Shown here: in pieces, positions 7,825 through 39,067 of the stretch
Layout of the letters: each line of letters starts with the position of its first letter
How positions within the stretch are numbered: the stretch's first letter is position 1
Origin: Nymphaea colorata
Lineage: Eukaryota; Streptophyta; Magnoliopsida; Nymphaeales; Nymphaeaceae
Direction of reading: 5' to 3'
Assembly (NCBI RefSeq): GCF_008831285.2
Contig: NC_045147.1
Span: 14,300,854-14,364,853 of the forward strand
DNA: 64,000 nucleotides
Translations under genes and position numbers: made by a program
The notes under the pieces: model-generated
What the model saw: only the letters and a program-made list of their open reading frames with translations
What the model was told of the DNA's origin: nothing
Databases searched by the model: none

Positions 7825-7883
7825 AAAGTCGGATTTAATTGTTTTGTAGCATCGAAACTTGAGCTCATTCACGATCAAAGGTG

Positions 7884-8386: not shown

Positions 8387-8392
8387 CTTTAA

Positions 8393-12975: not shown

Positions 12976-13014
<39 letters not shown>

Positions 13015-14233
13015 ATGGATGCCGCAATTCGGTGTTTGCGTTGCTGAACTTTTTCCCCTTGTCCTCTGTAGTTTTGGTGTCTATTTAGTAAGAAAATCTA
13101 CAGTAACCCGACTCTTTGATCTTGAAATTGGAGTTCCCAAATGTATAAATTCTTGATGGGTCGCGTGCAATTCGGTGTTTCTAACTGAAATACGAAGGCG
13201 ATCCCCATTGGTTCTCAGTTTTGCATCTTCTTCCTTTGGTTTGAGTTCTTTCCTTGCCGATGAGGTTTCTTCCTGGATAAGGTATTGGGGCTTTCGATAC
13301 AAAGGGACAGCTTGGTGTGGCCGAATTTCTAGAGATATCTTGTGTTCGAGTAATTCCTTGTTTTGACTTTCCCTTGTTTCTTACTGTTCCTGCTAAGCTG
13401 TCTTTATCAGGATTACCTAATAAGAGGATTTTCTACCATATCTCTTCGGTGAAGGTTGTGCGGAAGTTATGCGCCTGGTGCATCTTCTTGATGAATAGAG
13501 ATATTTGGGCACTGTGATGGAAGAAACTGGGGGTGGGTGTTACGCCAGTGAAATGATTTATAAATGTCTGTATTTTAGCAATAACCTGAGATATGATGTT
13601 CCGCTTGTTGTTGCCACCTTGAAATTATTATAAATTTATGTTTTCTTAAGCGATAACCTGAGTTGTGATGTTCTGTTTGTTTGTTGGCATCTAGCAACTT
13701 TGCATTCTTTGGCAGGTTTGATCTAATTGCTGATTTTATTCAGGGTCGAAATATGTGTTATGAACTGCTTGGCGTCTTTTCATAATATGAATCTTTTGCG
13801 ATTAGTATAGCGTCAAGTAAACACGACACATGAAACTTAGGAAGAAATTATCGTGTCTGCTTGCTGTAATTAAAGATGAACTTCCTATTTTCTAGCTCAT
13901 ATGCTTTAGGCCAGGTTATTTATTAACGTCAAATGGTTGATGGATAAGAATAAAGCTCCTGATCTACGTCGTTTTTTTGTTTTATTATTTTATAAACTTG
14001 TTCGGTTTTGATGCCTTCTAAGCATGGTGTTTATTCTTTACACTCTGCTTATTTTTATTTTTAGTGCTGATGTTTTGGTTTCAGTATTCCTTCGGACATG
14101 GATTTGTTCTTGAATGGAAGTTAGCATGCTTGTCATGACTAAGTTTTAAACTTGTTTGGTTTCAATTTTACTTGATGATGTAGTGATCTTACAGAGTGAA
14201 GTAGCATCTGTTGAGCTGTACAAGACAGAACTG
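12760..14233 (+). promoter_or_regulatory. presumed promoter/5' UTR of Yippee gene
   Basis: This single-copy stretch precedes the Yippee ATG. Composition becomes GC-richer at 12750-12900 and a (CT)n tract follows, as in many plant leaders. A splice acceptor GATCTTACAG just before 14194 suggests a non-coding first exon and a 5' UTR intron. I cannot place the transcription start or a TATA box. From 13795 onward the sequence is repeated at 26972. Confidence 0.45.
12973..13012. repeat. (CT)n microsatellite
   Basis: A CT run of about 20 units with one interruption, in the presumed 5' untranslated region or first intron of the Yippee-like gene. CT tracts are common near plant transcription starts; any regulatory role is inference. 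Confidence 0.9.
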
Positions 14234-14784
14234 ATGGTTGAATCGGATGGACCACGACTATATAGTTGCTGCAATTGTCGGAATAATGTCTCTCTTCACG
14301 ACGATATCATATCGAAGGCATTTCAGGTGACTGCTTTTAGCCATTGCAGACTTTTTTGTGTCTTAGCATCTGACTTGTTTTTGGGGATCCCTCATAATGA
14401 CCTGCAACAGATTTCTCTTAGTTTACTTAGAAATTCTCTTCCTAGCTGCTTGCATTCTGTTTTGCTGAATTCAACTCAGCTACCAATTTTCCTCCAAATT
14501 TGCACTTTCATTCTATTTTCACCATAGTGTATTAATCGTGTCTGTAATCTGTCTAGGGAAGACATGGCAGAGCATTCCTCTTTGCTCATGCAATGAATGT
14601 AGTTTTAGGGCCAAAAGAGAATCGGCAGCTGATGACCGGTTTGCACACAGTTGCTGATGTTCATTGCTGTGAATGTCGGGAGATCTTGGGATGGAAGTAT
14701 GTAAGGGCTTATGAAGAAACACAAAAGTACAAAGAAGGAAAATACATATTGGAAAAGTTAAAGATTGTCAAGGAAAACTGGTAG
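14234..14784 (+). CDS. Yippee-like zinc-binding protein (copy A)
   Basis: Two coding exons, 14234-14326 and 14557-14784, joined at CAG/GTGACT and TCTAG/GGAAGA, encode 106 residues. The protein begins [20 protein letters not shown], continues [17 protein letters not shown], and has the second metal pair in [17 protein letters not shown] followed by [18 protein letters not shown]. Two CxxC pairs about 50 residues apart and the GLHTVAD motif define the Yippee fold, a small zinc-binding domain related to cereblon and Mis18. Plant members are of unknown biochemical role. The start fits the short plant subgroup that opens close to GPRxYSCCNC. Copy A is intact; the copy at 27414-27963 has frameshifts and is probably the same gene assembled twice. 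Confidence 0.9.
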
Positions 14785-16127
14785 CTCTTTCTGTTCTGCT
14801 TTGTGCTGATGTCTGCGACTTCTTTGGTGGTGCATCCAGATGTTCATCATGTACAGAAATCTTGATAGATGAAAATATTCAGCCATTGCTGATTGTGTAT
14901 CCTCTGTTGCTGCAGCCGGTGGTCTGTGTTCTGGATTCAAACTGCTATCTGTTTTATTCTTATTAGTCTTGTTCATTCATAAAGTCAACTGTATATAAGT
15001 GGAAGTTCCAAAACGAAGGATTTCTGTTGACAGTTCATCCTTCACTGAACTGGACATGAATTCAATGTGAACAGTGTGTACCTTCTTACATGGTGCTTGC
15101 ATATCTGAGAAAATGGTTTTAGATGTTTGTTATCGTTGCAGTCCACTTTATGATTCCCTCCTACTCTTGACTTGGAAATAAGCGAAGTGAAAGTCTTCTT
15201 GGAGACAACCGGTAAGTGTGAAATTATAGAGACAAGAATAGCGTGGAGCCCGTGCAAGGATGACACATAAATGACTAAGTGAAATTCTTGCAAAGACAAG
15301 TTACGTATTGAGGGGAGGCATAATTGCCATGCATGAAAATTCAGTGGTGTTTTGATGATGACCGCACAAGTTGTCTGTGGAGAAATGTAAGTGGCAATGT
15401 AGAGGCATTCTTTAACAAAATTGAAAATGCTAGAATGCCTGCAGGACAACCAGATCTTTGTTCTCTGTAAAGTACTTGGTGTTTGAATGTCTATGGAATG
15501 TTTACGTACTTTTTGAGGTATTGAGATCTGGTCACTGCTTGGACAATACATCTGTTGTGCCAATTGAAATCCATGGCGGCCTTATCTCTATTGACCTCGT
15601 GGGTATACTGGTAAGCTTTAAGGCAAAAATCACAGCTTAGTGACTAAATACCGGCAAACGATCGGATAAACTCGTGGGCAGTGGCAGTAGAGTGTTTATC
15701 CTATCAATCTTATGTAACTCTGCAGGTAAATCAAATGAGAGGTGGTTATTACCAGTGTATGGACAGACATAAATCGGATTTGAATACAGTACAAGCGTCA
15801 TTTTCAAGGTTGAAAAGACCGTCAGCAATCTCATTAGTTTGAGATGGGTCATTAAGATCGACCATTGAGTCACGCAAGCCCGCAAGTTGTCGTGGGGTCT
15901 TCAAAAATTGGTAGCCATCAAAATGGGATAACGTGGTGAGCACGATTCAAAGTGCCTTCTTATCAAATCATGTTGATCACTTTATGATTTTGACTAAAAT
16001 AAGTGAAGTTAAAAAGCCCATTATCCCATGGTCGGTAAAGCGGTTCATTTCAAAGGGATTTGGGTTACAAATTCTGCGATCGCTGTTATGATCTAGCCAT
16101 GCAACCGCGCCCGCCCGCGAGGATCGA

Positions 16128-16195
16128 GTGAAATTTCACGCAAAAAAAAGTCGGCCCTGCCAGGGCCGACTTTTTTTCGGGTGAAAGTTCACCCG
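16128..16195. repeat. three consecutive hairpins
   Basis: A 12-bp palindrome GTGAAATTTCAC (16128-16139) is followed by a perfect 17-bp stem with a single-base loop (16143-16159 with 16161-16177; arm AAAAAAAGTCGGCCCTG) and then CGGGTGAA/TTCACCCG around AG (16178-16195). The set recurs in copy B, with the central stem at 29321-29355. It could be the core of a short transposon; no function is known to me. Confidence 0.85.
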
Positions 16196-16236
16196 TCGTG
16201 GCCCTTACCCATCGACGACTTGCAAGGGCCGAAGCG

Positions 16237-16500
16237 GAGGGGACGAGTGAAATTGGAAGAGGGGGAATGGGAGGACGCAGAGGGGGAAGGGAGTAGCGGA
16301 GGGGGAAGCGACGACGGGTAAGGGAGAAGCGGAGGGGAGAAGAGGGGGAAGGGAGAAGCGGAGGGGGAAGAGGGAGAAGGGAGAAGAGGGGGAAGGGAGG
16401 AGCAGAGGGGGAAGGGGGCTGTCCACCGGACTACGCAGAGGGGGAACTGTCAGGGGGAAGGGAGAAGCAGAGCGGGAAGGTTGGAGAGGGAAAGAAGAGA
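16237..16500. repeat. G-rich purine tract
   Basis: Imperfect repeats of GGGGGAAGGGAGAAGCGGAG on the plus strand, with very few pyrimidines. Long frames through it give only Pro/Leu/Ser-rich or Glu/Gly/Arg-rich peptides, so I do not call a gene. Runs of four or five G could form quadruplexes. Repeated at about 29415-29680, with several G-run length differences. Confidence 0.75.
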
Positions 16501-18421
16501 AATAAGGAATAAGGGAGACCGTGAGACCGTGATCTCTTGCAGTCATGGCCGTGGTAGAGAACGCCGGCGTGGACTTGGGGCGTTTGATTGTCATTGGCTG
16601 GCCGGAATTTTGGTGACAAAGTGTTTTTTCAGATTTCAACAGTCACTTAGAAAGTCTCTCATTCATTTTACCATGTGCATCAAACACAGTTAATTTTAGT
16701 TAATTTTACCTGCAAAAAACTTTCCTATAGATCCTCAAATCGAAGGTAGGTTAAGTTTCATCTTGTATTTTTTTTTAGAAAAATTTACCGTAGTAAATTT
16801 ACCACGTTAAATTTTTCCTTGCCATCAAACGAGCCTAAAGGAAAGAGAAAAAAAAATGTGAAGTTTTAGCTAGATTTCAACTAAAACATTTTTTTTTTCC
16901 TTTGTTGTATGTTCCAGATTTTGAAGAATGGCCCGGCGTATGATATACACACAAACCAAATAGAACCCAATTCGCTTTGCCAATGCATATATGTGGATCT
17001 TTGATGCTCTTCATTATCGTAATTTTTGGATAAGAAACAAGATGTAAGTCGTGTTATTTCATAAATAAAAGAGTATCATTAAGACTTTTGAAATATTACT
17101 GCCGGCTATGAGAACCTAAGCCCACTGATCTAAATCGGTAGATAAGCTAAACCAGTGGGATTTAATATTGCCAATTCAAAAGGATAATTGCGATCATGCT
17201 TTCTTTCAAAACTTGTTCTCCGTTTATTCATTTATTAGACGTTCTGATTTGGCTTTAGTCATATTTGGTAATGTTTATATATTAATACATACTCTTTAAA
17301 GCCCTGAGTTCTTTGGAACGCAATGTTCCAATAACAAAAGGGGAGTAAATCAAACATCGGGTGAAGAATGTGTTCCCTCTTTATGAAAGGGGAAATGAAC
17401 AGAAGGGAAATTTATGCCAACCCTTCCTCCCGCGCGCACGCTTGGTTCATGCTCCTCTCCGCCCTCATACCGCTTCATTCGCCAGGTTCTCTTTCTGTCG
17501 CTCAATCTGCCTCCCTCTCTCTCGCATGATGCCGCATGTCTCAGGGGTCTCTCTCTTTCTCTCTCTCTCTCTCTCGCCCCTAAACTCTCACAAGACTTCT
17601 CCATCAGTGCGACCGTGGAAATATCTGATGTGGATGTGTGGTGCATGCGGATTGAATGATCCATTTACATCTATTGTTTGTTTGCCTTCAGAGAATTGGA
17701 GAGCGTAATTTGCCTATTCGACCCGTCTTTCTCCGTCAAACTGTTGTGCTATATGTTACACGCTTACATCTTGTCTCCTAAACCGTAAATAATCTGAACT
17801 CTGCAACTGCTTAGGTTTCCCGATAACAGTAATGTGGTTAGTCTCTTACGCCTCGCTCCCTTGCCCTCGTCCTTTTAATTACTCAGATTCTGCTTTACGT
17901 TGCATAGGCAGAAGCTATGCCCTCAGAGCAATTTATTTTCGACTCTTGCATTCTGATTGTGGTTAATCTTGTTGCTTCCGCTTTTTCATGCATCTATTGA
18001 TCCAATTCTTGAAACTTGAAATTCGAGATACTTTGAGGATTTCACCATATGATGTTCTGAAAGGGATGATAGTTCTGTCCTTCTAGGCGAATGTCTCTAT
18101 ATGTCCGAAGTCGGTGTTTAACCCATCTTCACCAAACGTTCAAATAGTATTGAAACAAGTATAGTCACCGCAAGGGTTCCTTTCTCGAGGACATATTATT
18201 CTATTTGTTTCGCACTTGGATTTCAACCTCAATATACTAAAGGCATTTTCCATCTCTTGAATTGATTCTTCATTTTCTTTCTTCGGGTAAAATTTGTTGT
18301 GCATGGAACTTATTTATTTTTCAATTAGTTGCAATTACAGCATTTCACAATTGGACAGGTACGAGGATAGTTTGTAAGATATTATTGTAGTCAGCTCCAG
18401 TGGAACTGCTAAGTTCTTGAA

Positions 18422-19239
18422 ATGTTGTTCTGCCCAACCTGTGGCAACATGCTGCTAGTGCAGCGCCCGAACCTTGGTCAATCTTCAAGGTTCTTCTGCC
18501 CAACCTGTCCATATGCGTATCCTATAGAACGTGAGGTAAGTATCTCTGGGCTTCTTTCTTGCATTTGTTGTTATTGTTTCTGGTTACTATACCTACTTTG
18601 TTGTTTAACAGCACTATTATTTCATGATATTGCAGATTTCTGTCAAGCAAAAACTCAAAAAGAAAAAATTAGATTTAGTATTCAACTACGAAGAAGCCAT
18701 GAAAAATGCGAGCAAAAGTCAAGGTATCTTTCTGTTTCATAAGCACTTTCACTGCATTGAATGTCTATGACGACGAGTTCACGCTTGGATGAAGTGCACA
18801 TATCAATTGCAGTTTCCACCGCATTCAATCTTGACCATTGAGGTCTCTAGTAAACATCGCTAGCCAGTAGACCCCATAGGAAGCCTGGGTGGTATCTGAA
18901 AAAAAGCAATGAAATGACTGGTAGAAACTCAATAGCTAAATTGCCTGCAGTATTTAAAGTATACATGCTTCGCTCAAAGCGAATATTATAATTAAATGGC
19001 CATTTATGTAAAAATATTAAAATTTTTAACCGTTATTCATTGTCACAGAAATACAAGCACATGTAACAGTAAATTGATATAAGGCTTCAAATTAATCAAT
19101 ACCCCGTTAAGCAATGTACTTCAACAGTTGGCGATGAACAGGACATTTTAGATATATGCCATATATGCAACAGCTAGAAATTCCATATATTGCATCATGA
19201 GACAATACTAACGATATGGATGGAAATGAAGCTGAGGAT

Positions 19240-19274
<35 letters not shown>

Positions 19275-20934
19275 GAGAGAGAGAGAGAGATTACTGTATC
19301 AATTTACCTTAAAACCCATAGGGAACAAAATTTCAGGAGATAAAAGGATTCTTTCTTGACTGGGTACTTAATCAATGAATCAGCTAGGTGGTCTAATTGA
19401 TATCGGATAGGTACTGTTAGGGTCGTCCTAGTTAAAGACTGGGAATGATTAGGCCAACTAGTACCCATCTTGACAAAGCCAACTCGGATTAGCTGCATTA
19501 TTGAGGTGAATTGCAACAATCGCATTATTTACATCTCGAGACAATTGTATGATGTTTTGGAAAAAAAAAACATTCTCTTGCTCACATTTTTGCAATAAAA
19601 TTACCAGTAGAAATGACAATCATCTGTGTGAGGAAGAACAGAATGCAAAATTATGTTTTCAGATGAAAACGTGCTTTCTTCAGGAGCTTTTCACAAAGAT
19701 ACGTTGCAATGAAGAATTAAAAGATTCATTAGCATTTTATAACAAAATGTTTTGATATTTATCAAACTATCCTGGTAAAAAGTTAAAATTGACAATAGAT
19801 GAAACCATTTATTTTACTATGAAGAACGGTTGGAATGTTTCACTTGTACACTTTGTTGATGTCTAACCAAACGAATGTTACAAAGGTTATAAATGAAGTT
19901 GTGCGCCGATGGACCTCTCCTCCAGCATTTCCAAATGGAAGTTGTTATTCCACTGTTTCTCTTCAAGCCAGATTCTTTATGGTTCGTATTAGTCAAACAG
20001 ATAAATAAAAATGAAATAACACATTATGCAGCACTTATTGTCTGCAAAGCTTTTTTTCCGAACTGATTGACTTCCAGTAGAAACTACAGTCCTAATTGGA
20101 ATCCTACAAAGATTAAGCTTGTGTTACCTTGTGGACTAAGATACCTGAACGATTGGTTTCCGTATAGCTTAGGAGTAATGGCTACGGGTGGACTTGGTCA
20201 AATTTAGATCGACTAACCTGTCAAGGCCATAAACCCATGGCCTCCTGGAAACTGTCAAATGCTGAGTTGTATGCCTCTAAGTTTGATGAGGTGAATGTCT
20301 AATGTCAAGGAAAGTTTTTCTAATCATCTCATGACTGGTGTGTTTATTCTATGTTGAAACTTTAAATGGTATTTTCATTTATCATGTTTTAACCATCTAG
20401 AGGTTGATCGGCATTTATGAGTTTGGTGAACTTCATTTAAATTCTGAGTTGTCCTGTAAGGCCTTCTTTCAATGGCAATCAAAGACTTCAGTGGCTGACG
20501 TCGAAAAGTTTTCCTCATTTGAACTGAAATGTTCTGTCATTTGTGATCTCGTGCTTTTTTCTTTGTTTTATCTCCAGGAGTTGAAATACGCCTTTTAAGC
20601 TATGAACACCCCTGCTGAGAAATATGTCCTGAATATTGTATGGTTATGTTGATCTAATGATAATGTGGGATGGGTGAAAGTTTCTCTTGCAGTATCAAAT
20701 GGTCTTCAATACTCTTAAAAGTCCCTGCATATCTGTCATGAAAGCATTCCTTTTTTCATCTTATCTTCATGTTATGATAGAATTATTGCAAGTTTTTCAT
20801 TTCATTTTCATTCATAAGTTTCCATTTACTATGATTTCTTTCTCATAAAAACATATGCCAGTGGAGATTTCCAAGAACAAAGTTGATTTTCTTTTTTTTG
20901 TCGATGCTGCACCCAAGTGTTAATTTATCCTATT

Positions 20935-20973
<39 letters not shown>

Positions 20974-21481
20974 TGTTTGCTTGAGGCACTGAGTGGTGGA
21001 TTGGTAGGAAGTCCTGGTTGAAGAAGAGAGGTCAATTTGCCCCTAAAACATATGGTACTTACTGGGTCCTAAGGAGCTCAAAAATTTTAATGGAATAATC
21101 TGAGATGCGGCTGAAATGACAGGATAGATTTCTCCATTTTGCATTGGATCATCATGTGTGGCCTGACACAAAACTCAGACAATGCGTTACTAGTACTTTT
21201 CAATAAAACAGGCAAAACATTTTTGCTTTACTGTTGGCTCGATTTCCCGTGTAAAAACAATATTAGAAGAATTGTCCATGTTTTACAGTGAACAACTAGG
21301 GATGTTTTTTACCAGTTTCACCAATTGTTTTTTCTTTACTCATGCAGAAACCTGCCCACGATGTGGTCATGGGGAAGCATACAGTTATGACATGCAGACG
21401 CGATCTGCTGATGAAGGTGCAACAATTTTTTTCACATGCTGCAATAGATCGTGTGGGCACCAATGGCAACACTTCAATTAA
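18422..21481 (+). CDS. RPC10: RNA polymerase III subunit RPC10 (copy A)
   Basis: Three exons, 18422-18535, 18636-18723 and 21348-21481, give 111 residues; all junctions are GT-AG. The N-terminal zinc ribbon is MLFCPTCGNM ... RFFCPTCPYAYPIERE. The linker is Lys-rich. The C-terminal TFIIS-like ribbon is ETCPRCGHGEAYSYDMQ, RSADE, then FFTCCNRSCGHQW. The RSADE acidic hairpin is the motif that promotes RNA cleavage in TFIIS and in this subunit (POLR3K, yeast Rpc11), which supports termination and reinitiation by Pol III in the nucleus. Length and the CxxC pattern fit RPC10; RPB9 and TFIIS are excluded by the CPTCGN/CPTCPY start and small size. The 2.6-kb second intron holds (CA)n and (GA)n tracts. 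The last residues, QHFN, replace the usual Arg-Asp/Glu ending. Convergent with WNK. Confidence 0.93.
19242..19290. repeat. (CA)n(GA)n microsatellite
   Basis: About 14 CA units (19242-19270) followed, after TA, by GA repeats (19273-19290), inside RPC10 intron 2. The corresponding tract in copy B (about 32422-32470) has the same length, which would be unusual for two independently evolving loci. Confidence 0.9.
20938..20968. repeat. (GA)n microsatellite
   Basis: A run of about 15 GA units in RPC10 intron 2. The same tract appears in copy B near 34117-34147. Confidence 0.9.
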
Positions 21482-23161
21482 CCTAGTCTGTCAAGCCAGA
21501 GAGGGTTTGTCAAGAATTGACAGCAAGCATTTCCATCATTTTTGCATGGTTATTTAGCTTGCTAGCTCCTTATCTTTGAAGTTTGGGTAGTAACCTGCTC
21601 TTAAGCTTCTCTGTGTTCTACTCCCTTGAGTTCGGTGTCTGCTTGACTGTTAGTTTCCAGGCTATATTAGGCACTTTTCGCCATGCAGACATTCGTCTCC
21701 TTGTTGTTCTTGCTTTTTTCTTTACATTGTTTCCTCAGATGGTTCCCAATCAAAACAGGATGAAAAAATAGGACTGCTGTTTGGTGAAATATAGATATGA
21801 CTTAGGAGAGTTGAACTTTATTAAAACTATGGTTTAAAAAAAAAAACAGAAAACAAAGAAATCCTTTCGGTTTACTTTATCATTCTATGATTGGTGGTGT
21901 ATGGAGATTCTTCTCTCTATTATGCGCTCGCCAACAAGATCTCAGAACACCTGGTTAAGGGATTGACTTAACGCCTTCAAAATTTGGGAGCTGAAAAGTT
22001 ACGTACATATGAACATCCATCATATGGTTGGTGTAAATCCATTTGCAGTTTAAGTTGACCTTAAGTAAGCTTCCTAATGTTAGGTTGTGTTTGCAGAATT
22101 AAGCTTTGTTCCTGGCAACCCCAGTATATATGTTCGCCACACTAAAGCCTGTATCGATTAATGAAGAACGATATTTGTGTAGTTGGGGGTTTCTTTGATG
22201 GGGTTGTCTATAATACCTGCCTTGAAATAGCATGGAACTTGAGAACATTGGGTGGATTTCATTGTCCCAACGGTCGGTATTTTTTAAGATTGTTATTTCA
22301 GTATTTTATTTTCTTTATATATTATTTGCTCAAATTTTAAGGATCCCTTCTCTCCTTGATGAATATTTTCGTTCAAGGTTCTCTCTCTTTCGACGATAAT
22401 TGCAGTACTCTGATTTCTCCGGGGGGGTCCTCACTTTTGCTGAGAACTGCCAAACGAAAGTTGAGATTAAACGAAACTTTATACTTGTTATAATCCTTCA
22501 GCTTTTAATTTTAACATTTTTGGCAAAACGCGTATATCGGGCAAATGAGAAAAATGAGGCCTTGTTATGATTACTGACAAAAGTTGCTTCCTGATTCGAA
22601 TTTCTCTAGAAAACCCTGCGACTTGAATCTGGCGTCTCCCTCGTTGTGAAGAGGAATTTTAAACTTTAACGGCAATGGTTGTTTATGTTTCCGCTGTTTG
22701 GTTTGCGTGGCGCGTTAACTTTTTTTACAACTTGAAATGCATGAATCTAATTTTTTCGAGCACGTGTCGATTGATAGTTCAAGCACTGACTGAACAACAC
22801 TATCTTTTGCCGAGAAGAGTTCGATTGACCTGCCAAGACGTGCTCCTAAGTCCTTGAATCTGATGGAGGTGAAGAGATTAAAACCAGCACTCTTTCTTGC
22901 TCTTAACTTTATACAGAGATAGGAAGGGGAGTCCAGGAGTCCTCTTAACTAGTCAGCAGCACAATCAAGCACATCATGACTGCTTGCTTGAGAATCTTCT
23001 GAGAAAACTCTTTAATTCATCATGATATTTCCCCACACAGAGAAAGTTGATAAAGAAAATCAAGACGTTGCTCGAACGGAACAAGTTTATTTTCGAGCAA
23101 ATGATCAAAGACATTCCTCGAAAATTAAGGGAAACAATGATCAATGTCAAGCTAATTAGCG
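21482..23161. other. spacer between convergent RPC10 and WNK
   Basis: Holds the 3' untranslated regions of both genes. No conserved protein is seen. Homopolymer runs at 21835-21846 and 22421-22427 differ in length from or resemble those of copy B. Repeated at 34661-36343. Confidence 0.5.
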
Positions 23162-25510
23162 TCAAGCAGCTGGCTGTTTATTCTTTGTGGCCCACCGCTT
23201 CCTAGCCTCCTCAAGTGCTTCATCACGCTGCCTCGAGAGTTCCTGAAACCATTGCTGGTACTGCTGGCTAATCAAATCAAATTCCGCTTTCAACTCCTCA
23301 TCCTCGTCTTCCTCCAAAGACGATGAGGCATAGCTCCGGGTGTTCGCAATATCAGCAAAATCGTTTAAATTACAGACTGACAAATCTAAATTTGCCACAT
23401 CTGCGACGTTGTTTTCCCTCGTTTCAGGAACCAAATCAACAACATTAGAACATTCAGTTGAGACCCCAGAGGCAACTGACTCAAGGGATTCCTGGTCCGC
23501 TGCAGCAGCAGAACTTGAAGGGGAATCAAATCCACCATGGGACATGGCATCGTCTGGTTTTGTAAATGCACCATCCTCATGCTGCCGCTTTATGGAACCC
23601 TCCACAGAACTCAGATCAATGCAATAATTCTCCAAATCTGACCCAGACAGGACATCTTCTATGCCTTTGACAGCACTGCTTCCATGTACTCCATCCCATG
23701 AATAACCAACGGAGAACCGAGCATGCTCCGGCACCTTAGATTCTGTCCGGACACAGTTTGTTCCATTTTCTGAGGGGGGAACGGAAGGTTCCCACTCAGG
23801 TATTAGTTTCATTATCAGGAAATCAATGAACTCTGCAATAAATGTGACATCTTGATCAGAGAGATCTAGCTGCTCCACCATCTCACTGGCCACCGAAAGT
23901 GCCGTGTCACTGTCAAGGTAAAACATAAAATGCACATTCTTCACACGACCTACAACAAAAGATATCTTGTCATTACGAAGCTATGGCTATAATTGAAACA
24001 ACCAAGGCCCAAGGATTGTCTAATGTAACTGACGTGCAAATTCAGTTAATTAATCTTCCCACCCATTATATCAGATCATCACTTACCATCAGGGCCAGCA
24101 ATCCTCAGAACTAGAGATATAGAATTAGCATCAGTTTGTCTCCCTTCAACCTGAACGAATAGTTCTTTTTGGACCTCTCGTATTCCAAGCTTGGAAAGCA
24201 GTGGGTATTTATGCTGTTCCTCGAATTAGTGCTCATAGATGACTGCTTGTAGTCATAATCTATGTCCATTGATAATGGTCCAGACTTCACCTGAGTAACA
24301 GAAGCCGCATCAGAGTGCACAGACGAACCTTCCAAGTTTGAGGTTTGGGGCACTAAAGTGGGTAATTGCAGAGAGTTGCAGGCTTGCTCTTTTAAATCAA
24401 TGTGCTGAAGAAATTGATATTTCAAAAGCTCCCTTGCAGAAGGCCTTTCCGATGCTGGGGCTAGACATTTCTCAATAAGCAACTTTACTTCAGGATCATT
24501 AACCATGTCTAAGGCTGCAGGTTTGATCCCCTGAAAGGGAAATAATGGATGAATAGCAATACCAGACATAATAAGATCAATTTAACCTAACACATCAGCA
24601 AGCTTACAGAAGAGACTTTCTTATAAATCTGGGCTGGGTTCTTGCATTCACTGTAAGGGTACTCAAATGTGACCATCTCCAATAAGCACATGCCGAAGGA
24701 ATATATGTCAACAAGTTCGTTGTACTCTTCTTCATAAAGCTCTGGAGCCATGAACTCAGGAGTCCCTAAGGTAAAGAGAGTTGGATAGCAGTAAAGATTG
24801 ACAAAAACCAAAATCAAAATATCAACCCACAAACAATTCAAGTTATTAGTTACCAATCACGCTTCGGGCACTAGGCTGCTGCATAATAGTTGCTAATCCA
24901 AGATCTCCGATCTTTACTTGCCCATGATTTCCATTAACGAAAATGTTATCACATTTCAAATCTCTGTGAATAATGGGTGGATTATGCCCATGAAGATATT
25001 GCAGTCCACGAAGAATCTGTCTGGCCCAGTTCTTTACAGCCTTCATGTCCACCTTTTTATGTTTCAGACGGTACCTAATATTATTTGAAAATTTATTTCA
25101 CTGCCATATCTACAAAGATCTCAAAGTATACCACAAAAATTAAGAATTTCATGATAAGTCATGAAACAATAATTGAAAGGGGTGACTCCAACTTACTTTC
25201 TTAGACTCCCAGACGTAAACAACTCCGTAATTATGTTGATGGTCTTCTTCTGCTCATCGACCCATGAACTAAAAATTTGATAATGTTATCGTGTTTAAGC
25301 GATTTCAGCAAATGCACTTCCGAATACAATCTCTCTAAATCTTCAGGCGACCGTAAGACATCGCCCATTTTGACTTGGTTCCATGCCACTTCTATCCCAT
25401 CTACTTCATCAAATGACCTGTATCTGGATAGACAAGGTTAAGAGGCCCAATCCCAACTCTCTTTGTTCTTCACCTTCAAATTTGGATAAACGATGGAAAG
25501 AAAAATGGAA
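23162..25510 (-). pseudogene. WNK: WNK kinase, 5'-truncated copy (copy A)
   Basis: Minus-strand exons 25423-25197, 25074-24854, 24765-24608, 24530-24087 and 23949-23162 correspond to exons 3-7 of the complete gene at 36344-39067. Exon 1 and exon 2 proper are missing because the sequence turns back on itself after 25510. Exon 3 is one base short (AAAAA versus AAAAAA near 25270) and exon 6 is one base short (GTTTGTC versus GTTTTGTC near 24138), so the frame is broken twice. The kinase, RFXV/PF2-like and C-terminal coiled-coil regions are otherwise identical to copy B. I think these are errors at a contig end; they are probably not a decayed paralogue. Confidence 0.85.
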
Positions 25511-26871: not shown

Positions 26872-26971
26872 NNNNNNNNNNNNNNNNNNNNNNNNNNNNN
26901 NNNNNNNNNNNNNNNNNNNNNNNNNNNNNNNNNNNNNNNNNNNNNNNNNNNNNNNNNNNNNNNNNNNNNNN
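26872..26971. other. assembly gap, 100 N
   Basis: Exactly 100 undetermined bases. This round number is the usual placeholder for a scaffold join of unknown size, so the true distance between 26871 and 26972 is not given. Confidence 0.99.
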
Positions 26972-27413
26972 TTTGCGATTAGTATAGCGTCAAGTAAACA
27001 CGACACATGAAACTTAGGAAGAAATTATCGTGTCTGCTTGCTGTAATTAAAGATGAACTTCCTATTTTCTAGCTCATATGCTTTAGGCCAGGTTATTTAT
27101 AACGTCAAATGGTTGATGGATAAGAATAAAGCTCCTGATCTACGTCGTTTTTTTTGTTTTTATTATTTTATAAACTTGTTCGGTTTTGATGCCTTCTAAG
27201 CATGGTGTTTATTCTTTACACTCTGCTTATTTTTATTTTTAGTGCTGATGTTTTGGTTTCAGTATTCCTTCGGACATGGATTTGTTTCTTGAATGGAAGT
27301 TAGCATGCTTGTCATGACTAAGTTTTAAACTTGTTTGGTTTCAATTTTACTTGATGATGTAGTGATCTTACAGAGTGAAGTAGCATCTGTTGAGCCTGTA
27401 CAAGACAGAACTG

Positions 27414-27963
27414 ATGGTTGAATCGGATGGACCACGACTATATAGTTGCTGCAATTGTCGGAATAATGTCTCTCTTCACGACGATATCATATCGAAGGCA
27501 TTTCAGGTGACTGCTTTTAGCCATTGCAGACTTTTTTGTGTCTTAGCATCTGACTTGTTTTTGGGGATCCCTCATAATGACCTGCAAACAGATTTCTCTT
27601 AGTTTACTTAGAAATTCTCTTCCTAGCTGCTTGCATTCTGTTTTGCTGAATTCAACTCAGCTACCAATTTTCCTCCAAATTTGCACTTTCATTCTATTTC
27701 ACCATAGTGTATTAATCGTGTCTGTAATCTGTCTAGGGAAGACATGGCAGAGCATTCCTCTTTGCTCATGCAATGAATGTAGTTTTAGGGCCAAAAGAGA
27801 ACGGCAGCTGATGACCGGTTTTGCACACAGTTGCTGATGTTCATTGCTGTGAATGTCGGGAGATCTTGGGATGGAAGTATGTAAGGGCTTATGAAGAAAC
27901 ACAAAAGTACAAAGAAGGAAATACATATTGGAAAAGTTAAAGATTGTCAAGGAAAACTGGTAG
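27414..27963 (+). pseudogene. Yippee-like gene, frameshifted copy (copy B)
   Basis: Corresponds to exons 27414-27506 and 27737-27963 of the intact gene at 14234-14784. Exon 1 is intact. Exon 2 has a lost T (GAGAACGGC for GAGAATCGGC, near 27801), a gained T (CCGGTTTTGC, near 27819) and a lost A (GGAAATAC for GGAAAATAC, near 27920). The product would be misread between the indels and again at the C-terminus. All three are one-base changes close to the gap, so I treat them as probable base-calling errors in a duplicate of one gene. Confidence 0.85.
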
Positions 27964-30900
27964 CTCTTTCTGTTCTGCTTTGTGCTGATGTCTGCGACTT
28001 CTTTGGTGGTGCATCCAGATGTTCATCATGTACAGAAATCTTGATAGATGAAAATATTCAGCCATTGCTGATTGTGTATCCTCTGTTGCTGCAGCCGGTG
28101 GTCTGTGTTCTGGATTCAAACTGCTATCTGTTTTATTCTTATTAGTCTTGTTCATTCATAAAGTTCAACTGTATATAAGTGGAAGTTCCAAAACGAAGGA
28201 TTTCTGTTGACAGTTCATCCTTCACTGAACTGGACATGAATTCAATGTGAACAGTGTGTACCTTCTTACATGGTGCTTGCATATCTGAGAAAATGGTTTT
28301 AGATGTTTGTTATCGTTGCAGTCCACTTTATGATTCCCTCCTACTCTTGACTTGGAAATAAGCGAAGTGAAAGTCTTCTTGGAGACAACCGGTAAGTGTG
28401 AAATTATAGAGACAAGAATAGCGTGGAGCCCGTGCAAGGATGACACATAAATGACTAAGTGAAATTCTTGCAAAGACAAGTTACGTATTGAGGGAGGCAT
28501 AATTGCCATGCATGAAAATTCAGTGGTGTTTTGATGATGACCGCACAAGTTGTCTGTGGAGAAATGTAAGTGGCAATGTAGAGGCATTCTTTAACAAATA
28601 TTGAAAATGCTAGAATGCCTGCAGGACAACCAGATCTTTGTTCTCTGTAAAGTACTTGGTGTTGAATGTCTATGGAATGTTTACGTACTTTTTGAGGTAT
28701 TGAGATCTGGTCACTGCTTGGACAATACATCTGTTGTGCCAATTGAAATCCATGGCGGCCTTATCTCTATTGACCTCGTGGGTATACTGGTAAGCTTTAA
28801 GGCAAAAATCACAGCTTAGTGACTAAATACCGGCAAACGATCGGATAAACTCGTGGGCAGTGGCAGTAGAGTGTTATCCTATCAATCTTATGTAACTCTG
28901 CAGGTAAATCAAATGAGAGGTGGTTATTACCAGTGTATGGACAGACATAAATCGGATTTGAATACAGTACAAGCGTCATTTTCAAGGTTGAAAAGACCGT
29001 CAGCAATCTCATTAGTTTGAGATGGGTCATTAAGATCGACCATTGAGTCACGCAAGCCCGCAAGTTGTCGTGGGGTCTTCAAAAATTGGTAGCCATCAAA
29101 ATGGGATAACGTGGTGAGCACGATTCAAAGTGCCTTCTTATCAAATCATGTTGATCACTTTATGATTTTGACTAAAATAAGTGAAGTTAAAAAGCCCATT
29201 ATCCCATGGTCGGTAAAGCGGTTCATTTCAAAGGGATTTGGGTTACAAATTCTGCGATCGCTGTTATGATCTAGCCATGCAACCGCGCCCGCCCGCGAGG
29301 ATCGAGTGAAATTTCACGCAAAAAAAAGTCGGCCCTGCCAGGGCCGACTTTTTTTCGGGTGAAAGTTCACCCGTCGTGGCCCTTACCCATCGACGACTTG
29401 CAAGGGCCGAAGCGGAGGGGGACGAGTGAAATTGGAAGAGGGGGAATGGGAGGACGCAGAGGGGGAAGGGAGTAGCGGAGGGGGAAGCGACGACGGGTAA
29501 GGGAGAAGCGGAGGGGAGAAGAGGGGAAGGGAGAAGCGGAGGGGGGAAGAGGGAGAAGGGAGAAGAGGGGGAAGGGAGGAGCAGAGGGGGAAGGGGGCTG
29601 TCCACCGGACTACGCAGAGGGGGAACTGTCAGGGGAAGGGAGAAGCAGAGCGGGAAGGTTGGAGAGGGAAAGAAGAGAAATAAGGAATAAGGGAGACCGT
29701 GAGACCGTGATCTCTTGCAGTCATGGCCGTGGTAGAGAACGCCGGCGTGGACTTGGGGCGTTTGATTGTCATTGGCTGGCCGGAATTTTGGTGACAAAGT
29801 GTTTTTTTCAGATTTCAACAGTCACTTAGAAAGTCTCTCATTCATTTTACCATGTGCATCAAAACACAGTTAATTTTAGTTAATTTTACCTGCAAAAAAA
29901 CTTTCCTATAGATCCTCAAATCGAAGGTAGGTTAAGTTTCATCTTGTATTTTTTTTTAGAAAATTTACCGTAGTAAATTTACCACGTTAAATTTTTCCTT
30001 GCCATCAAACGAGCCTAAAGGAAAGAGAAAAAAAAATGTGAAGTTTTAGCTAGATTTCAACTAAAAACATTTTTTTTTTCCTTTGTTGTATGTTCCAGAT
30101 TTTGAAGAATGGCCCGGCGTATGATATACACACAAACCAAATAGAACCCAATTCGCTTTGCCAATGCATATATGTGGATCTTTGATGCTCTTCATTATCG
30201 TAATTTTTGGATAAGAAACAAGATGTAAGTCGTGTTATTTCATAAATAAAAGAGTATCATTAAGACTTTTGAAATATTACTGCCGGCTATGAGAACCTAA
30301 GCCCACTGATCTAAATCGGTAGATAAGCTAAACCAGTGGGATTTAATATTGCCAATTCAAAAGGATAATTGCGATCATGCTTTCTTTCAAAACTTGTTCT
30401 CCGTTTATTCATTTATTAGACGTTCTGATTTGGCTTTAGTCATATTTGGTAATGTTATATATTAATACATACTCTTTAAAGCCCTGAGTTCTTTGGAACG
30501 CAATGTTCCAATAACAAAAGGGGAGTAAATCAAACATCGGGTGAAGAATGTGTTCCCTCTTTATGAAAGGGGAAATGAACAGAAGGGAAATTTATGCCAA
30601 CCCTTCCTCCCGCGCGCACGCTTGGTTCATGCTCCTCTCCGCCCTCATACCGCTTCATTCGCCAGGTTCTCTTTCTGTCGCTCAATCTGCCTCCCTCTCT
30701 CTCGCATGATGCCGCATGTCTCAGGGGTCTCTCTCTTTCTCTCTCTCTCTCTCTCGCCCCTAAACTCTCACAAGACTTCTCCATCAGTGCGACCGTGGAA
30801 ATATCTGATGTGGATGTGTGGTGCATGCGGATTGAATGATCCATTTACATCTATTGTTTGTTTGCCTTCAGAGAATTGGAGAGCGTAATTTGCCTATTCG

Positions 30901-31601
30901 ACCCGTCTTTCTCCGTCAAACTGTTGTGCTATATGTTACACGCTTACATCTTGTCTCCTAAACCGTAAATAATCTGAACTCTGCAACTGCTTAGGTTTCC
31001 CGATAACAGTAATGTGGTTAGTCTCTTACGCCTCGCTCCCTTGCCCTCGTCCTTTTAATTACTCAGATTCTGCTTTACGTTGCATAGGCAGAAGCTATGC
31101 CCTCAGAGCAATTTATTTTCGACTCTTGCATTCTGATTGTGGTTAATCTTGTTGCTTCCGCTTTTTCATGCATCTATTGATCCAATTCTTGAAACTTGAA
31201 ATTCGAGATACTTTGAGGATTTCACCATATGATGTTCTGAAAGGGATGATAGTTCTGTCCTTCTAGGCGAATGTCTCTATATGTCCGAAGTCGGTGTTTA
31301 ACCCATCTTCACCAAACGTTCAAATAGTATTGAAACAAGTATAGTCACCGCAAGGGTTCCTTTCTCGAGGACATATTATTCTATTTGTTTCGCACTTGGA
31401 TTTCAACCTCAATATACTAAAGGCATTTTCCATCTCTTGAATTGATTCTTCATTTTCTTTCTTCGGGTAAAATTTGTTGTGCATGGAACTTATTTATTTT
31501 TCAATTAGTTGCAATTACAGCATTTCACAATTGGACAGGTACGAGGATAGTTTGTAAGATATTATTGTAGTCAGCTCCAGTGGAACTGCTAAGTTCTTGA
31601 A
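27964..31601. other. spacer between Yippee and RPC10 (copy B)
   Basis: Repeats 14785-18421, including the three-hairpin cluster (central stem 29321-29355) and the G-rich purine tract (about 29415-29680). No gene is recognised. Confidence 0.5.
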
Positions 31602-32419
31602 ATGTTGTTCTGCCCAACCTGTGGCAACATGCTGCTAGTGCAGCGCCCGAACCTTGGTCAATCTTCAAGGTTCTTCTGCCCAACCTGTCCATATGCGTAT
31701 CCTATAGAACGTGAGGTAAGTATCTCTGGGCTTCTTTCTTGCATTTGTTGTTATTGTTTCTGGTTACTATACCTACTTTGTTGTTTAACAGCACTATTAT
31801 TTCATGATATTGCAGATTTCTGTCAAGCAAAAACTCAAAAAGAAAAAATTAGATTTAGTATTCAACTACGAAGAAGCCATGAAAAATGCGAGCAAAAGTC
31901 AAGGTATCTTTCTGTTTCATAAGCACTTTCACTGCATTGAATGTCTATGACGACGAGTTCACGCTTGGATGAAGTGCACATATCAATTGCAGTTTCCACC
32001 GCATTCAATCTTGACCATTGAGGTCTCTAGTAAACATCGCTAGCCAGTAGACCCCATAGGAAGCCTGGGTGGTATCTGAAAAAAAGCAATGAAATGACTG
32101 GTAGAAACTCAATAGCTAAATTGCCTGCAGTATTTAAAGTATACATGCTTCGCTCAAAGCGAATATTATAATTAAATGGCCATTTATGTAAAAATATTAA
32201 AATTTTTAACCGTTATTCATTGTCACAGAAATACAAGCACATGTAACAGTAAATTGATATAAGGCTTCAAATTAATCAATACCCCGTTAAGCAATGTACT
32301 TCAACAGTTGGCGATGAACAGGACATTTTAGATATATGCCATATATGCAACAGCTAGAAATTCCATATATTGCATCATGAGACAATACTAACGATATGGA
32401 TGGAAATGAAGCTGAGGAT

Positions 32420-32454
<35 letters not shown>

Positions 32455-34113
32455 GAGAGAGAGAGAGAGATTACTGTATCAATTTACCTTAAAACCCATA
32501 GGGAACAAAATTTCAGGAGATAAAAGGATTCTTTCTTGACTGGGTACTTAATCAATGAATCAGCTAGGTGGTCTAATTGATATCGGATAGGTACTGTTAG
32601 GGTCGTCCTAGTTAAAGACTGGGAATGATTAGGCCAACTAGTACCCATCTTGACAAAGCCAACTCGGATTAGCTGCATTATTGAGGTGAATTGCAACAAT
32701 CGCATTATTTACATCTCGAGACAATTGTATGATGTTTTGGAAAAAAAAAACATTCTCTTGCTCACATTTTTGCAATAAAATTACCAGTAGAAATGACAAT
32801 CATCTGTGTGAGGAAGAACAGAATGCAAAATTATGTTTTCAGATGAAAACGTGCTTTCTTCAGGAGCTTTTCACAAAGATACGTTGCAATGAAGAATTAA
32901 AAGATTCATTAGCATTTTATAACAAAATGTTTTGATATTTATCAAACTATCCTGGTAAAAAGTTAAAATTGACAATAGATGAAACCATTTATTTTACTAT
33001 GAAGAACGGTTGGAATGTTTCACTTGTACACTTTGTTGATGTCTAACCAAACGAATGTTACAAAGGTTATAAATGAAGTTGTGCGCCGATGGACCTCTCC
33101 TCCAGCATTTCCAAATGGAAGTTGTTATTCCACTGTTTCTCTTCAAGCCAGATTCTTTATGGTTCGTATTAGTCAAACAGATAAATAAAAATGAAATAAC
33201 ACATTATGCAGCACTTATTGTCTGCAAAGCTTTTTTTCCGAACTGATTGACTTCCAGTAGAAACTACAGTCCTAATTGGAATCCTACAAAGATTAAGCTT
33301 GTGTTACCTTGTGGACTAAGATACCTGAACGATTGGTTTCCGTATAGCTTAGGAGTAATGGCTACGGGTGGACTTGGTCAAATTTAGATCGACTAACCTG
33401 TCAAGGCCATAAACCCATGGCCTCCTGGAAACTGTCAAATGCTGAGTTGTATGCCTCTAAGTTTGATGAGGTGAATGTCTAATGTCAAGGAAAGTTTTTC
33501 TAATCATCTCATGACTGGTGTGTTTATTCTATGTTGAAACTTTAAATGGTATTTTCATTTATCATGTTTTAACCATCTAGAGGTTGATCGGCATTTATGA
33601 GTTTGGTGAACTTCATTTAAATTCTGAGTTGTCCTGTAAGGCCTTCTTTCAATGGCAATCAAAGACTTCAGTGGCTGACGTCGAAAAGTTTTCCTCATTT
33701 GAACTGAAATGTTCTGTCATTTGTGATCTCGTGCTTTTTTCTTTGTTTTATCTCCAGGAGTTGAAATACGCCTTTTAAGCTATGAACACCCTGCTGAGAA
33801 ATATGTCCTGAATATTGTATGGTTATGTTGATCTAATGATAATGTGGGATGGGTGAAAGTTTCTCTTGCAGTATCAAATGGTCTTCAATACTCTTAAAAG
33901 TCCCTGCATATCTGTCATGAAAGCATTCCTTTTTTCATCTTATCTTCATGTTATGATAGAATTATTGCAAGTTTTTCATTTCATTTTCATTCATAAGTTT
34001 CCATTTACTATGATTTCTTTCTCATAAAAACATATGCCAGTGGAGATTTCCAAGAACAAAGTTGATTTTCTTTTTTTTGTCGATGCTGCACCCAAGTGTT
34101 AATTTATCCTATT

Positions 34114-34152
<39 letters not shown>

Positions 34153-34660
34153 TGTTTGCTTGAGGCACTGAGTGGTGGATTGGTAGGAAGTCCTGGTTGA
34201 AGAAGAGAGGTCAATTTGCCCCTAAAACATATGGTACTTACTGGGTCCTAAGGAGCTCAAAAATTTTAATGGAATAATCTGAGATGCGGCTGAAATGACA
34301 GGATAGATTTCTCCATTTTGCATTGGATCATCATGTGTGGCCTGACACAAAACTCAGACAATGCGTTACTAGTACTTTTCAATAAAACAGGCAAAACATT
34401 TTTGCTTTACTGTTGGCTCGATTTCCCGTGTAAAAACAATATTAGAAGAATTGTCCATGTTTTACAGTGAACAACTAGGGATGTTTTTTACCAGTTTCAC
34501 CAATTGTTTTTTCTTTACTCATGCAGAAACCTGCCCACGATGTGGTCATGGGGAAGCATACAGTTATGACATGCAGACGCGATCTGCTGATGAAGGTGCA
34601 ACAATTTTTTTCACATGCTGCAATAGATCGTGTGGGCACCAATGGCAACACTTCAATTAA
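31602..34660 (+). CDS. RPC10: RNA polymerase III subunit RPC10 (copy B)
   Basis: Exons 31602-31715, 31816-31903 and 34527-34660 encode the same 111-residue protein as 18422-21481, with both zinc ribbons and the RSADE hairpin. I see no coding difference, and the introns match including both microsatellites. One base fewer occurs in the long intron (GAACACCCTG versus GAACACCCCTG). It is most likely the same locus represented twice. If both were real the plant would carry two identical Pol III subunit genes 13 kb apart. Confidence 0.9.
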
Positions 34661-36343
34661 CCTAGTCTGTCAAGCCAGAGAGGGTTTGTCAAGAATTGAC
34701 AGCAAGCATTTCCATCATTTTTGCATGGTTATTTAGCTTGCTAGCTCCTTATCTTTGAAGTTTGGGTAGTAACCTGCTCTTAAGCTTCTCTGTGTTCTAC
34801 TCCCTTGAGTTCGGTGTCTGCTTGACTGTTAGTTTCCAGGCTATATTAGGCACTTTTCGCCATGCAGACATTCGTCTCCTTGTTGTTCTTGCTTTTTTCT
34901 TTACATTGTTTCCTCAGATGGTTCCCAATCAAAACAGGATGAAAAAATAGGACTGCTGTTTTGGTGAAATATAGATATGACTTAGGAGAGTTGAACTTTA
35001 TTAAAACTATGGTTTAAAAAAAAAAACAGAAAACAAAGAAATCCTTTCGGTTTACTTTATCATTCTATGATTGGTGGTGTATGGAGATTCTTCTCTCTAT
35101 TATGCGCTCGCCAACAAGATCTCAGAACACCTGGTTAAGGGATTGACTTAACGCCTTCAAAATTTGGGAGCTGAAAAGTTACGTACATATGAACATCCAT
35201 CATATGGTTGGTGTAAATCCATTTGCAGTTTAAGTTGACCTTAAGTAAGCTTCCTAATGTTAGGTTGTGTTTGCAGAATTAAGCTTTGTTCCTGGCAACC
35301 CCAGTATATATGTTCGCCACACTAAAGCCTGTATCGATTAATGAAGAACGATATTTGTGTAGTTGGGGGTTTCTTTGATGGGGTTGTCTATAATACCTGC
35401 CTTGAAATAGCATGGAACTTGAGAACATTGGGTGGATTTCATTGTCCCAACGGTCGGTATTTTTTAAGATTGTTATTTCAGTATTTTATTTTCTTTATAT
35501 ATTATTTGCTCAAATTTTAAGGATCCCTTCTCTCCTTGATGAATATTTTCGTTCAAGGTTCTCTCTCTTTCGACGATAATTGCAGTACTCTGATTTCTCC
35601 GGGGGGTCCTCACTTTTGCTGAGAACTGCCAAACGAAAGTTGAGATTAAACGAAACTTTATACTTGTTATAATCCTTCAGCTTTTAATTTTAACATTTTT
35701 GGCAAAACGCGTATATCGGGCAAATGAGAAAAATGAGGCCTTGTTATGATTACTGACAAAAGTTGCTTCCTGATTCGAATTTCTCTAGAAAACCCTGCGA
35801 CTTGAATCTGGCGTCTCCCTCGTTTGTGAAGAGGAATTTTAAACTTTAACGGCAATGGTTGTTTATGTTTCCGCTGTTTGGTTTGCGTGGCGCGTTAACT
35901 TTTTTTACAACTTGAAATGCATGAATCTAATTTTTTCGAGCACGTGTCGATTGATAGTTCAAGCACTGACTGAACAACACTATCTTTTGCCGAGAAGAGT
36001 TCGATTGACCTGCCAAGACGTGCTCCTAAGTCCTTGAATCTGATGGAGGTGAAGAGATTAAAACCAGCACTCTTTCTTGCTCTTAACTTTATACAGAGAT
36101 AGGAAGGGGAGTCCAGGAGTCCTCTTAACTAGTCAGCAGCACAATCAAGCACATCATGACTGCTTGCTTGAGAATCTTCTGAGAAAACTCTTTAATTCAT
36201 CATGATATTTCCCCACACAGAGAAAAGTTGATAAAGAAAATCAAGACGTTGCTCGAAACGGAACAAGTTTATTTTCGAGCAAATGATCAAAGACATTCCT
36301 CGAAAATTAAGGGAAACAATGATCAATGTCAAGCTAATTAGCG
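34661..36343. other. spacer between convergent RPC10 and WNK (copy B)
   Basis: Repeats 21482-23161. It carries the 3' flanks of both genes and no recognisable gene. Several homopolymers differ by one base from copy A (for example the G run near 35600, and GAAAAG versus GAAAG near 36222). Confidence 0.5.
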
Positions 36344-39067
36344 TCAAGCAGCTGGCTGTTTATTCTTTGTGGCCCACCGCTTCCTAGCCTCCTCAAGTGC
36401 TTCATCACGCTGCCTCGAGAGTTCCTGAAACCATTGCTGGTACTGCTGGCTAATCAAATCAAATTCCGCTTTCAACTCCTCATCCTCGTCTTCCTCCAAA
36501 GACGATGAGGCATAGCTCCGGGTGTTCGCAATATCAGCAAAATCGTTTAAATTACAGACTGACAAATCTAAATTTGCCACATCTGCGACGTTGTTTTCCC
36601 TCGTTTCAGGAACCAAATCAACAACATTAGAACATTCAGTTGAGACCCCAGAGGCAACTGACTCAAGGGATTCCTGGTCCGCTGCAGCAGCAGAACTTGA
36701 AGGGGAATCAAATCCACCATGGGACATGGCATCGTCTGGTTTTGTAAATGCACCATCCTCATGCTGCCGCTTTATGGAACCCTCCACAGAACTCAGATCA
36801 ATGCAATAATTCTCCAAATCTGACCCAGACAGGACATCTTCTATGCCTTTGACAGCACTGCTTCCATGTACTCCATCCCATGAATAACCAACGGAGAACC
36901 GAGCATGCTCCGGCACCTTAGATTCTGTCCGGACACAGTTTGTTCCATTTTCTGAGGGGGGAACGGAAGGTTCCCACTCAGGTATTAGTTTCATTATCAG
37001 GAAATCAATGAACTCTGCAATAAATGTGACATCTTGATCAGAGAGATCTAGCTGCTCCACCATCTCACTGGCCACCGAAAGTGCCGTGTCACTGTCAAGG
37101 TAAAACATAAAATGCACATTCTTCACACGACCTACAACAAAAGATTATCTTGTCATTACGAAGCTATGGCTATAATTGAAACAACCCAAGGCCCAAGGAT
37201 TGTCTAATGTAACTGACGTGCAAATTCAGTTAATTAATCTTCCCACCCATTATATCAGATCATCACTTACCATCAGGGCCAGCAATCCTCAGAACTAGAG
37301 ATATAGAATTAGCATCAGTTTTGTCTCCCTTCAACCTGAACGAATAGTTCTTTTTGGACCTCTCGTATTCCAAGCTTGGAAAGCAGTGGGTATTTATGCT
37401 GTTCCTCGAATTAGTGCTCATAGATGACTGCTTGTAGTCATAATCTATGTCCATTGATAATGGTCCAGACTTCACCTGAGTAACAGAAGCCGCATCAGAG
37501 TGCACAGACGAACCTTCCAAGTTTGAGGTTTGGGGCACTAAAGTGGGTAATTGCAGAGAGTTGCAGGCTTGCTCTTTTAAATCAATGTGCTGAAGAAATT
37601 GATATTTCAAAAGCTCCCTTGCAGAAGGCCTTTCCGATGCTGGGGCTAGACATTTCTCAATAAGCAACTTTACTTCAGGATCATTAACCATGTCTAAGGC
37701 TGCAGGTTTGATCCCCTGAAAGGGAAATAATGGATGAATAGCAATACCAGACATAATAAGATCAATTTAACCTAACACATCAGCAAGCTTACAGAAGAGA
37801 CTTTCTTATAAATCTGGGCTGGGTTCTTGCATTCACTGTAAGGGTACTCAAATGTGACCATCTCCAATAAGCACATGCCGAAGGAATATATGTCAACAAG
37901 TTCGTTGTACTCTTCTTCATAAAGCTCTGGAGCCATGAACTCAGGAGTCCCTAAGGTAAAGAGAGTTGGATAGCAGTAAAGATTGACAAAAACCAAAATC
38001 AAAATATCAACCCACAAACAATTCAAGTTATTAGTTACCAATCACGCTTCGGGCACTAGGCTGCTGCATAATAGTTGCTAATCCAAGATCTCCGATCTTT
38101 ACTTGCCCATGATTTCCATTAACGAAAATGTTATCACATTTCAAATCTCTGTGAATAATGGGTGGATTATGCCCATGAAGATATTGCAGTCCACGAAGAA
38201 TCTGTCTGGCCCAGTTCTTTACAGCCTTCATGTCCACCTTTTTATGTTTCAGACGGTACCTAATATTATTTGAAAATTTATTTCACTGCCATATCTACAA
38301 AGATCTCAAAGTATACCACAAAAAATTAAGAATTTCATGATAAGTCATGAAACAATAATTGAAAGGGGTGACTCCAACTTACTTTCTTAGACTCCCAGAC
38401 GTAAACAACTCCGTAATTATGTTGATGGTCTTCTTCTGCTCATCGACCCATGAACTAAAAAATTTGATAATGTTATCGTGTTTAAGCGATTTCAGCAAAT
38501 GCACTTCCGAATACAATCTCTCTAAATCTTCAGGCGACCGTAAGACATCGCCCATTTTGACTTGGTTCCATGCCACTTCTATCCCATCTACTTCATCAAA
38601 TGACCTGTATCTGGATAGACAAGGTTAAGAGGCCCAATCCCAACTCTCTTTGTTCTTCACCTTCAAATTTGGATAAACGATGGAAAGAAAAAATGGAAAT
38701 TTTGAAGGATACACAGTCTTGAATGCTCCCTTACCCAAAACTTCCGTATACTGATAACAACCATACAAGATCGCAATCAAATAAATGCTAATGCAAATAT
38801 CATAAGATATAAGCTATGAACAAATAATACAACAATAGATTCAATTATTTGAGGGAGAAAAAAAGAACCTCCATCAAAAATCAGTCTGAGAATCCTATAA
38901 ACATAAAACGAATTTTCGATCATCTTTTCACAGATGAGAATGAGGCCATTCCCATTGTCGACAGAACTCACCCGGATGTATCGACCACTAGGGTCCGTTT
39001 CCGCAATCTCCAAATCAGGCAGCTCTGATTCGCCGGAACACCGGTCTCCGGTCGGCGAGCCGTTCAT
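36344..39067 (-). CDS. WNK: WNK (with-no-lysine) protein kinase, complete
   Basis: Seven exons on the minus strand (39067-38972, 38750-38713, 38610-38383, 38259-38039, 37950-37793, 37715-37271, 37131-36344) give 657 residues, with GT-AG at every junction. The kinase domain starts [19 protein letters not shown]. The lysine lies in the glycine-rich loop (K43) and the usual subdomain II lysine is replaced in EVAWNQVKM, the WNK signature. HRDLKCDN (D159), GDLG (D178) and GTPEFMAPE follow. A PF2/autoinhibitory-like segment begins [16 protein letters not shown], and the C-terminus has the [22 protein letters not shown] coiled coil. WNKs are cytosolic Ser/Thr kinases in ion, clock and flowering-time signalling. 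An in-frame ATG at 39154 would add 29 Arg-rich residues; I prefer 39067 because family members start close to the GRY motif. Intact, unlike copy A. Confidence 0.93.

Follow-up and report, generated by a model that had tools for sequence, protein, structure and literature searches.

The window, a 64-kb stretch of Nymphaea colorata DNA, contains three genes within or at the edge of a segment that occurs twice. The first is a Yippee-like gene, which in the upstream copy (copy A) lies at 14234-14784 on the + strand, with exons at 14234-14326 and 14557-14784, an intact reading frame and a spliced protein that matches the Pfam family Yippee-Mis18 (7.8e-11). The second, at 18422-21475 of copy A (+ strand), encodes zinc ribbons of the RPB9 and TFIIS types (Pfam Zn_ribbon_RPB9, 3.4e-12; Zn_ribbon_TFIIS, 8.3e-18); only two of its exons were located, and we take it to be an RNA polymerase III subunit gene of the RPC11-like kind. 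The third encodes a WNK-type kinase (Pkinase, 2.3e-52; best PDB match WNK3, 5.8e-96) and is found on the - strand at 36344-39067, in and beyond the downstream copy (copy B), where the alignment leaves all located exons open.

The flanks of the duplicated segment (1-13794 and 38746-64000) contain no other within-window match longer than 97 bp. Further genes lie to the right: an ORF of pentatricopeptide repeats at 43551-44729 on the minus strand (393 codons from stop to stop; PPR_2, 1.4e-63), and, at 60201-62260, a fucose pyrophosphorylase domain and, after it on the same strand, a GHMP kinase domain, presumably in the order of a bifunctional fucokinase/GDP-fucose pyrophosphorylase. Short repeats are scattered over both flanks. 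They include a 33-bp unit repeated about three times in tandem at 6248-6352 (97% matches), open in two frames of the + strand, a 34-bp palindrome at 9824-9857 (94%) and a 38-bp direct repeat at 41350-41387 and 41406-41443 (95%). A perfect 27-bp inverted repeat (46002-46028 and 46074-46100) lies near a 97-bp direct repeat of 77% identity (46255-46351 and 46542-46637), and these two pairs may perhaps be the remains of a mobile element. Scans of the window gave no Rfam match and no tRNA, the tRNA scan having been run at the bacterial setting.

Comparison of the window with itself by megablast yields three long matches, arranged around a single gap of exactly 100 N (26872-26971) that divides the window into contig 1 and contig 2. 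In the longest match, 13795-25516 aligns in the same direction with 26972-38704 over 11,746 columns at 99.676% identity; BLAST counts one mismatch and 37 gaps, all of a single base. This agrees with the preliminary description, which had reported near-identical, collinear copies of about 11.7 kb across a 100-N join at an offset of about 13,180; the offset drifts from 13,177 to 13,188. The equal microsatellite lengths that it had noted are also present: an AC microsatellite of 29 bp (19242-19270 in A, 32422-32450 in B) and a GA microsatellite of 35 bp (20938-20972 and 34117-34151). Near-identical copies thus flank the assembly gap on both sides. Copy B (26972-38704) follows the gap directly, and the first base of contig 2 already matches A, with no overhang. 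The forward part of copy A (13795-25506) stands at the end of contig 1. The overlap therefore reaches both contig ends: it begins at the first base of contig 2 and runs in contig 1 up to a fold-back.

This fold-back accounts for the other two matches. The last 1.36 kb of contig 1 (25507-26871) is the same locus in inverted orientation, the reverse complement of 37378-38745 in B, to which it aligns over 1368 columns at 99.78% identity with no mismatches and 3 gaps. Correspondingly, 24193-26871 matches itself in inverted orientation over 2690 columns (98.81%, 10 mismatches and 22 gaps), a match that passes through the turn and so counts each difference between the arms twice. The forward direction of contig 1 ends at about 25510; from there to the gap, the contig retraces its own last 1.3 kb in reverse. 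The right ends given previously (25510 and 38698) do lie at this crossover, but the stretch 25507-26871 had been left out and is in fact the inverted copy of 37378-38745.

The turn occurs at a short interrupted inverted repeat whose arms, 38695-38704 (+) and 38736-38745 (-), agree at 9 of 10 positions, with 31 nt between them. In the coordinates of B, the forward arm of the fold-back stops at 38704 and the inverted arm begins at 38745, less than 200 bases from the turn, and the stretch between the two arms of the repeat occurs only once in contig 1. The junction itself (25507-25516) is an imperfect 10-nt homology (9/10 matching) and contains the only mismatch between A and B, at 25511, a position at which contig 1 has switched to the inverted arm. 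Since the sole mismatch falls within the fold-back junction, the true overlap is, in the BLAST alignment, without a single substitution. A biological palindrome or hairpin chromosome end was considered and ruled out, because B runs on for 25 kb without within-window repeats longer than 97 bp.

The genes are affected unequally by this arrangement. The Yippee-like gene recurs in B at 27414-27963 (+ strand), with its second exon thrown out of frame by three one-base differences in the alignment (A positions 14622, 14640 and 14739), at a distance of 0.8-0.95 kb from the first base of contig 2. It had been thought that the 5' region of this gene was reached from A only; this applies to sequence upstream of the reading frame, whereas the two-exon frame is wholly within the repeat. 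The RPC11-like gene has a second copy at 31602-34654 (+ strand), with the same two ORFs as in A. The WNK gene is represented in A by its 3' part (23162-25506, - strand), which lacks the first two exons (38972-39067 and about 38713-38750), located beyond the end of the forward part of A, and whose frame is shifted by a single base at 24135 and again at 25271, between 0.2 and 1.4 kb ahead of the turn; both positions are open in B. The earlier assignment of the WNK 5' end to B holds for the whole gene, but most of the second exon is also present in the fold-back arm. That arm presents WNK exons in + strand orientation and might be called as one more partial gene during annotation.

Apart from the junction mismatch, the 37 differences between the copies are all single-base indels, and 35 of them lie in runs of at least two equal bases, a share given without a chance control. 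Four of the 37 are in a GA-rich minisatellite within the overlap (16231-16460 in A, 29410-29640 in B), where the aligners disagree on placement and the alignment is least certain: near 16350 MAFFT gives extra mismatched columns, BLAST two one-base indels. The indels are unevenly distributed. In coordinates of A, 25 lie in the left zone (13795-17299; 3505 bases), one in the middle zone (17300-21699; 4400 bases) and 11 in the right zone (21700-25516; 3817 bases), and the depletion of the middle zone has p = 1.1e-6 with zone limits set post hoc. A test of uniform positions gives p = 1e-4 for 35 events, these being the differences of the MAFFT alignment minus the junction mismatch, with those of the minisatellite near 16350 counted once.

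In the right zone, 10 of 11 represent a base absent from A (p = 0.012). In the left zone neither side is favored (14 bases absent from A, 11 from B), and only three indels, those in the Yippee-like gene, can be assigned to a copy; the two zones do not differ significantly in this bias (Fisher p = 0.059). The last 1.3 kb or so is available in three versions (the forward part of A, the fold-back arm and B), the portion of B being 10-12 kb inside contig 2. Besides the junction, this three-way comparison contains 6 gap columns, of which 3 are private to the forward part of A, 3 to the fold-back arm and none to B. Coding sequence is consistent with this pattern: all three differences in the second Yippee exon break B, and both differences in WNK exons break A. 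Thus, wherever the sequence permits a judgement, the damaged copy is the one close to its own contig end, as thin read support at the contig ends would be expected to produce.

These differences bear on the possibility, raised in the preliminary description, that two haplotypes of one locus were placed in series as a heterotype false duplication. Misplaced haplotype contigs are a described source of false duplications (PMC8081667). However, there are no substitutions outside the junction, so that haplotypes in series would need very low heterozygosity: if 0.1% of sites were heterozygous, an 11.7-kb overlap free of substitutions would have a probability of about 8e-6, rising to 0.003 at 0.05% and 0.31 at 0.01%. 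Moreover, both dinucleotide microsatellites in the overlap have the same length in the two copies, and the indels that do occur appear to resemble sequencing errors. This explanation, weakened by these results, is much less likely than unmerged contig ends, and we consider it highly improbable.

A very recent, real tandem duplication, accompanied by an unrelated fold-back artefact at the end of contig 1, would also give near-identical direct copies. This requires a duplication and a separate artefact at one place, leaves the reciprocal damage near each contig's own end to be accounted for, and would have to do without a sequenced junction from A into B, since none lies in the window. The likelihood of such a coincidence is negligible.

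A more elaborate alternative takes the fold-back itself as real. A very recent inverted triplication, with A forward, a middle copy inverted and mostly hidden in the gap, and B forward, may arise by origin-dependent inverted-repeat amplification or by template switching of the DUP-TRP/INV-DUP type. The order and orientation of the three segments agree with such an event, and the expectation of a forward-inverted-forward order from a real triplication counts against reading the locus as an artefact. The junction also coincides with a short interrupted inverted repeat whose arms are close together, as in yeast, for which repeats of 2-14 bp are described, their arms no more than a hundred bases apart and preferably 40-80 bp (PMC10766183). 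The homology at the crossover, which also counts in favor of the artefact reading, is greater than expected by chance: among 100,000 fold-back junctions placed at random in contig 2, 4 exact nucleotides have P = 0.021 and the 9/10 segment P = 0.0018, or 0.020 (exact) and 0.0016 (imperfect) at equal arm spacing, although these junction statistics and their scoring, like the zone limits above, were chosen post hoc with the sequence already seen. The stability of the hairpin predicted at the turn lends no significant support to a snap-back (z = -1.53; 19 of 200 shuffled sequences were as stable or more so), which counts against the artefact reading. Similar inverted repeats are frequent, contig 2 (37 kb) having 202 start positions of this kind, or 5.5 per kb, so that an inverted repeat at the junction is weak evidence for a real inverted triplication.

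Other features are harder to reconcile with a triplication. The 100-N gap must then conceal about 10 kb or more together with the left junction; a single inverted junction is present, and no second one is seen, the position of the latter falling in the gap. The crowding of differences toward both contig ends is left unexplained, and the damaged copy of each reading frame is the one near its own contig end. A triplication of the locus is accordingly very unlikely. Equally unlikely is its specific form, a young germline or somatic event in the plant, with template switching at an inverted repeat that spans the second WNK exon and the following intron. If it were nevertheless true, the dosage of the Yippee-like and RPC11-like genes would be raised.

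We therefore return to unmerged overlapping contig ends, the explanation to which the preliminary description had given preference. The lack of substitutions outside the junction, the indels toward both ends, the reciprocal frameshifts and the fold-back all lend it further support. Judging from the window alone and from published descriptions, the locus is almost certainly an assembly artefact, a homotype false duplication by overlapping contig boundaries, and the additional gene copies are very probably spurious. The main new evidence is the fold-back at 25507-26871, which was absent from the preliminary description.

A plausible course of events can be proposed. One stretch, comprising the Yippee-like gene, the RPC11-like gene and the 3' part of the WNK gene, would have been assembled twice, as A where contig 1 ends and as B where contig 2 starts. 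During library preparation, the strand of one molecule may have turned back at the inverted repeat 38695-38704/38736-38745, producing a chimeric long read. This fold-back read would have steered or ended contig 1, so that extension into contig 2 was no longer possible for the assembler; contig 1 was probably ended in this way. A fold-back at this position would explain both why contig 1 stops and why merging failed. In scaffolding, contig 2 would later have been joined to contig 1 across a 100-N gap, with the overlap left untrimmed. A strand that turns at the inverted repeat would account for the sequence, although homology alone cannot separate an origin in the tube from one in the cell.

If there is one copy only, the order of genes is Yippee, RPC11-like and WNK, one each, and for curation one Yippee-like gene, one RPC11-like gene and one WNK gene should be counted. 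Left in place, the artefact duplicates the RPC11-like gene, adds a frameshifted second Yippee-like gene and gives rise to incomplete WNK models on each strand, false copies that could pass for recent duplicates, pseudogenes or an antisense gene. The combination of a fold-back at a contig end with an overlap across a 100-N gap provides a signature that can be checked in the rest of the assembly.

Several known systems share features with this locus. Origin-dependent inverted-repeat amplification (PMC10766183) has a junction at a short interrupted inverted repeat and the forward-inverted-forward order, but the locus described here has one junction only and a gap in place of the second. The fold-back is closer to artefacts of sequencing and amplification. 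Such artefacts affect about 0.55-0.6% of the ONT genomic reads studied in PMC12870357 and hardly occur in the PacBio HiFi data of that study. Two studies of amplified DNA describe palindromes arising from whole-genome amplification (PMC6218980) and inverted chimeras whose arms share a short complementarity and have lost the sequence between them, more than 85% of the rearrangements being inverted and more than 70% of the junctions primed at 2-21 complementary bases (PMC1855051). In all three, as here, a sequence runs into its reverse complement; a short segment is represented only once, and the bases at the turn are complementary over a short length. Unlike these artefacts, the fold-back here is in a contig rather than a read, and several processes fit.

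The closest counterpart is the homotype false duplication, in which overlapping sequences at contig boundaries give rise to tandem copies with an intervening gap and unequal consensus quality (PMC8081667); a later survey recognizes false duplications by a very low read depth and by a gap that separates the copies (PMC9516828). The locus departs from this type in that the end of contig 1 bears a fold-back arm. In other respects it conforms to the published type: it occurs twice in tandem at contig boundaries with a gap between the copies, its 11.7-kb overlap may equal a long read in size, and the consensus quality of the copies, judged from their sequences, is unequal, as the indel zones (25/1/11) and the frameshifts in Yippee (B) and WNK (A) indicate.
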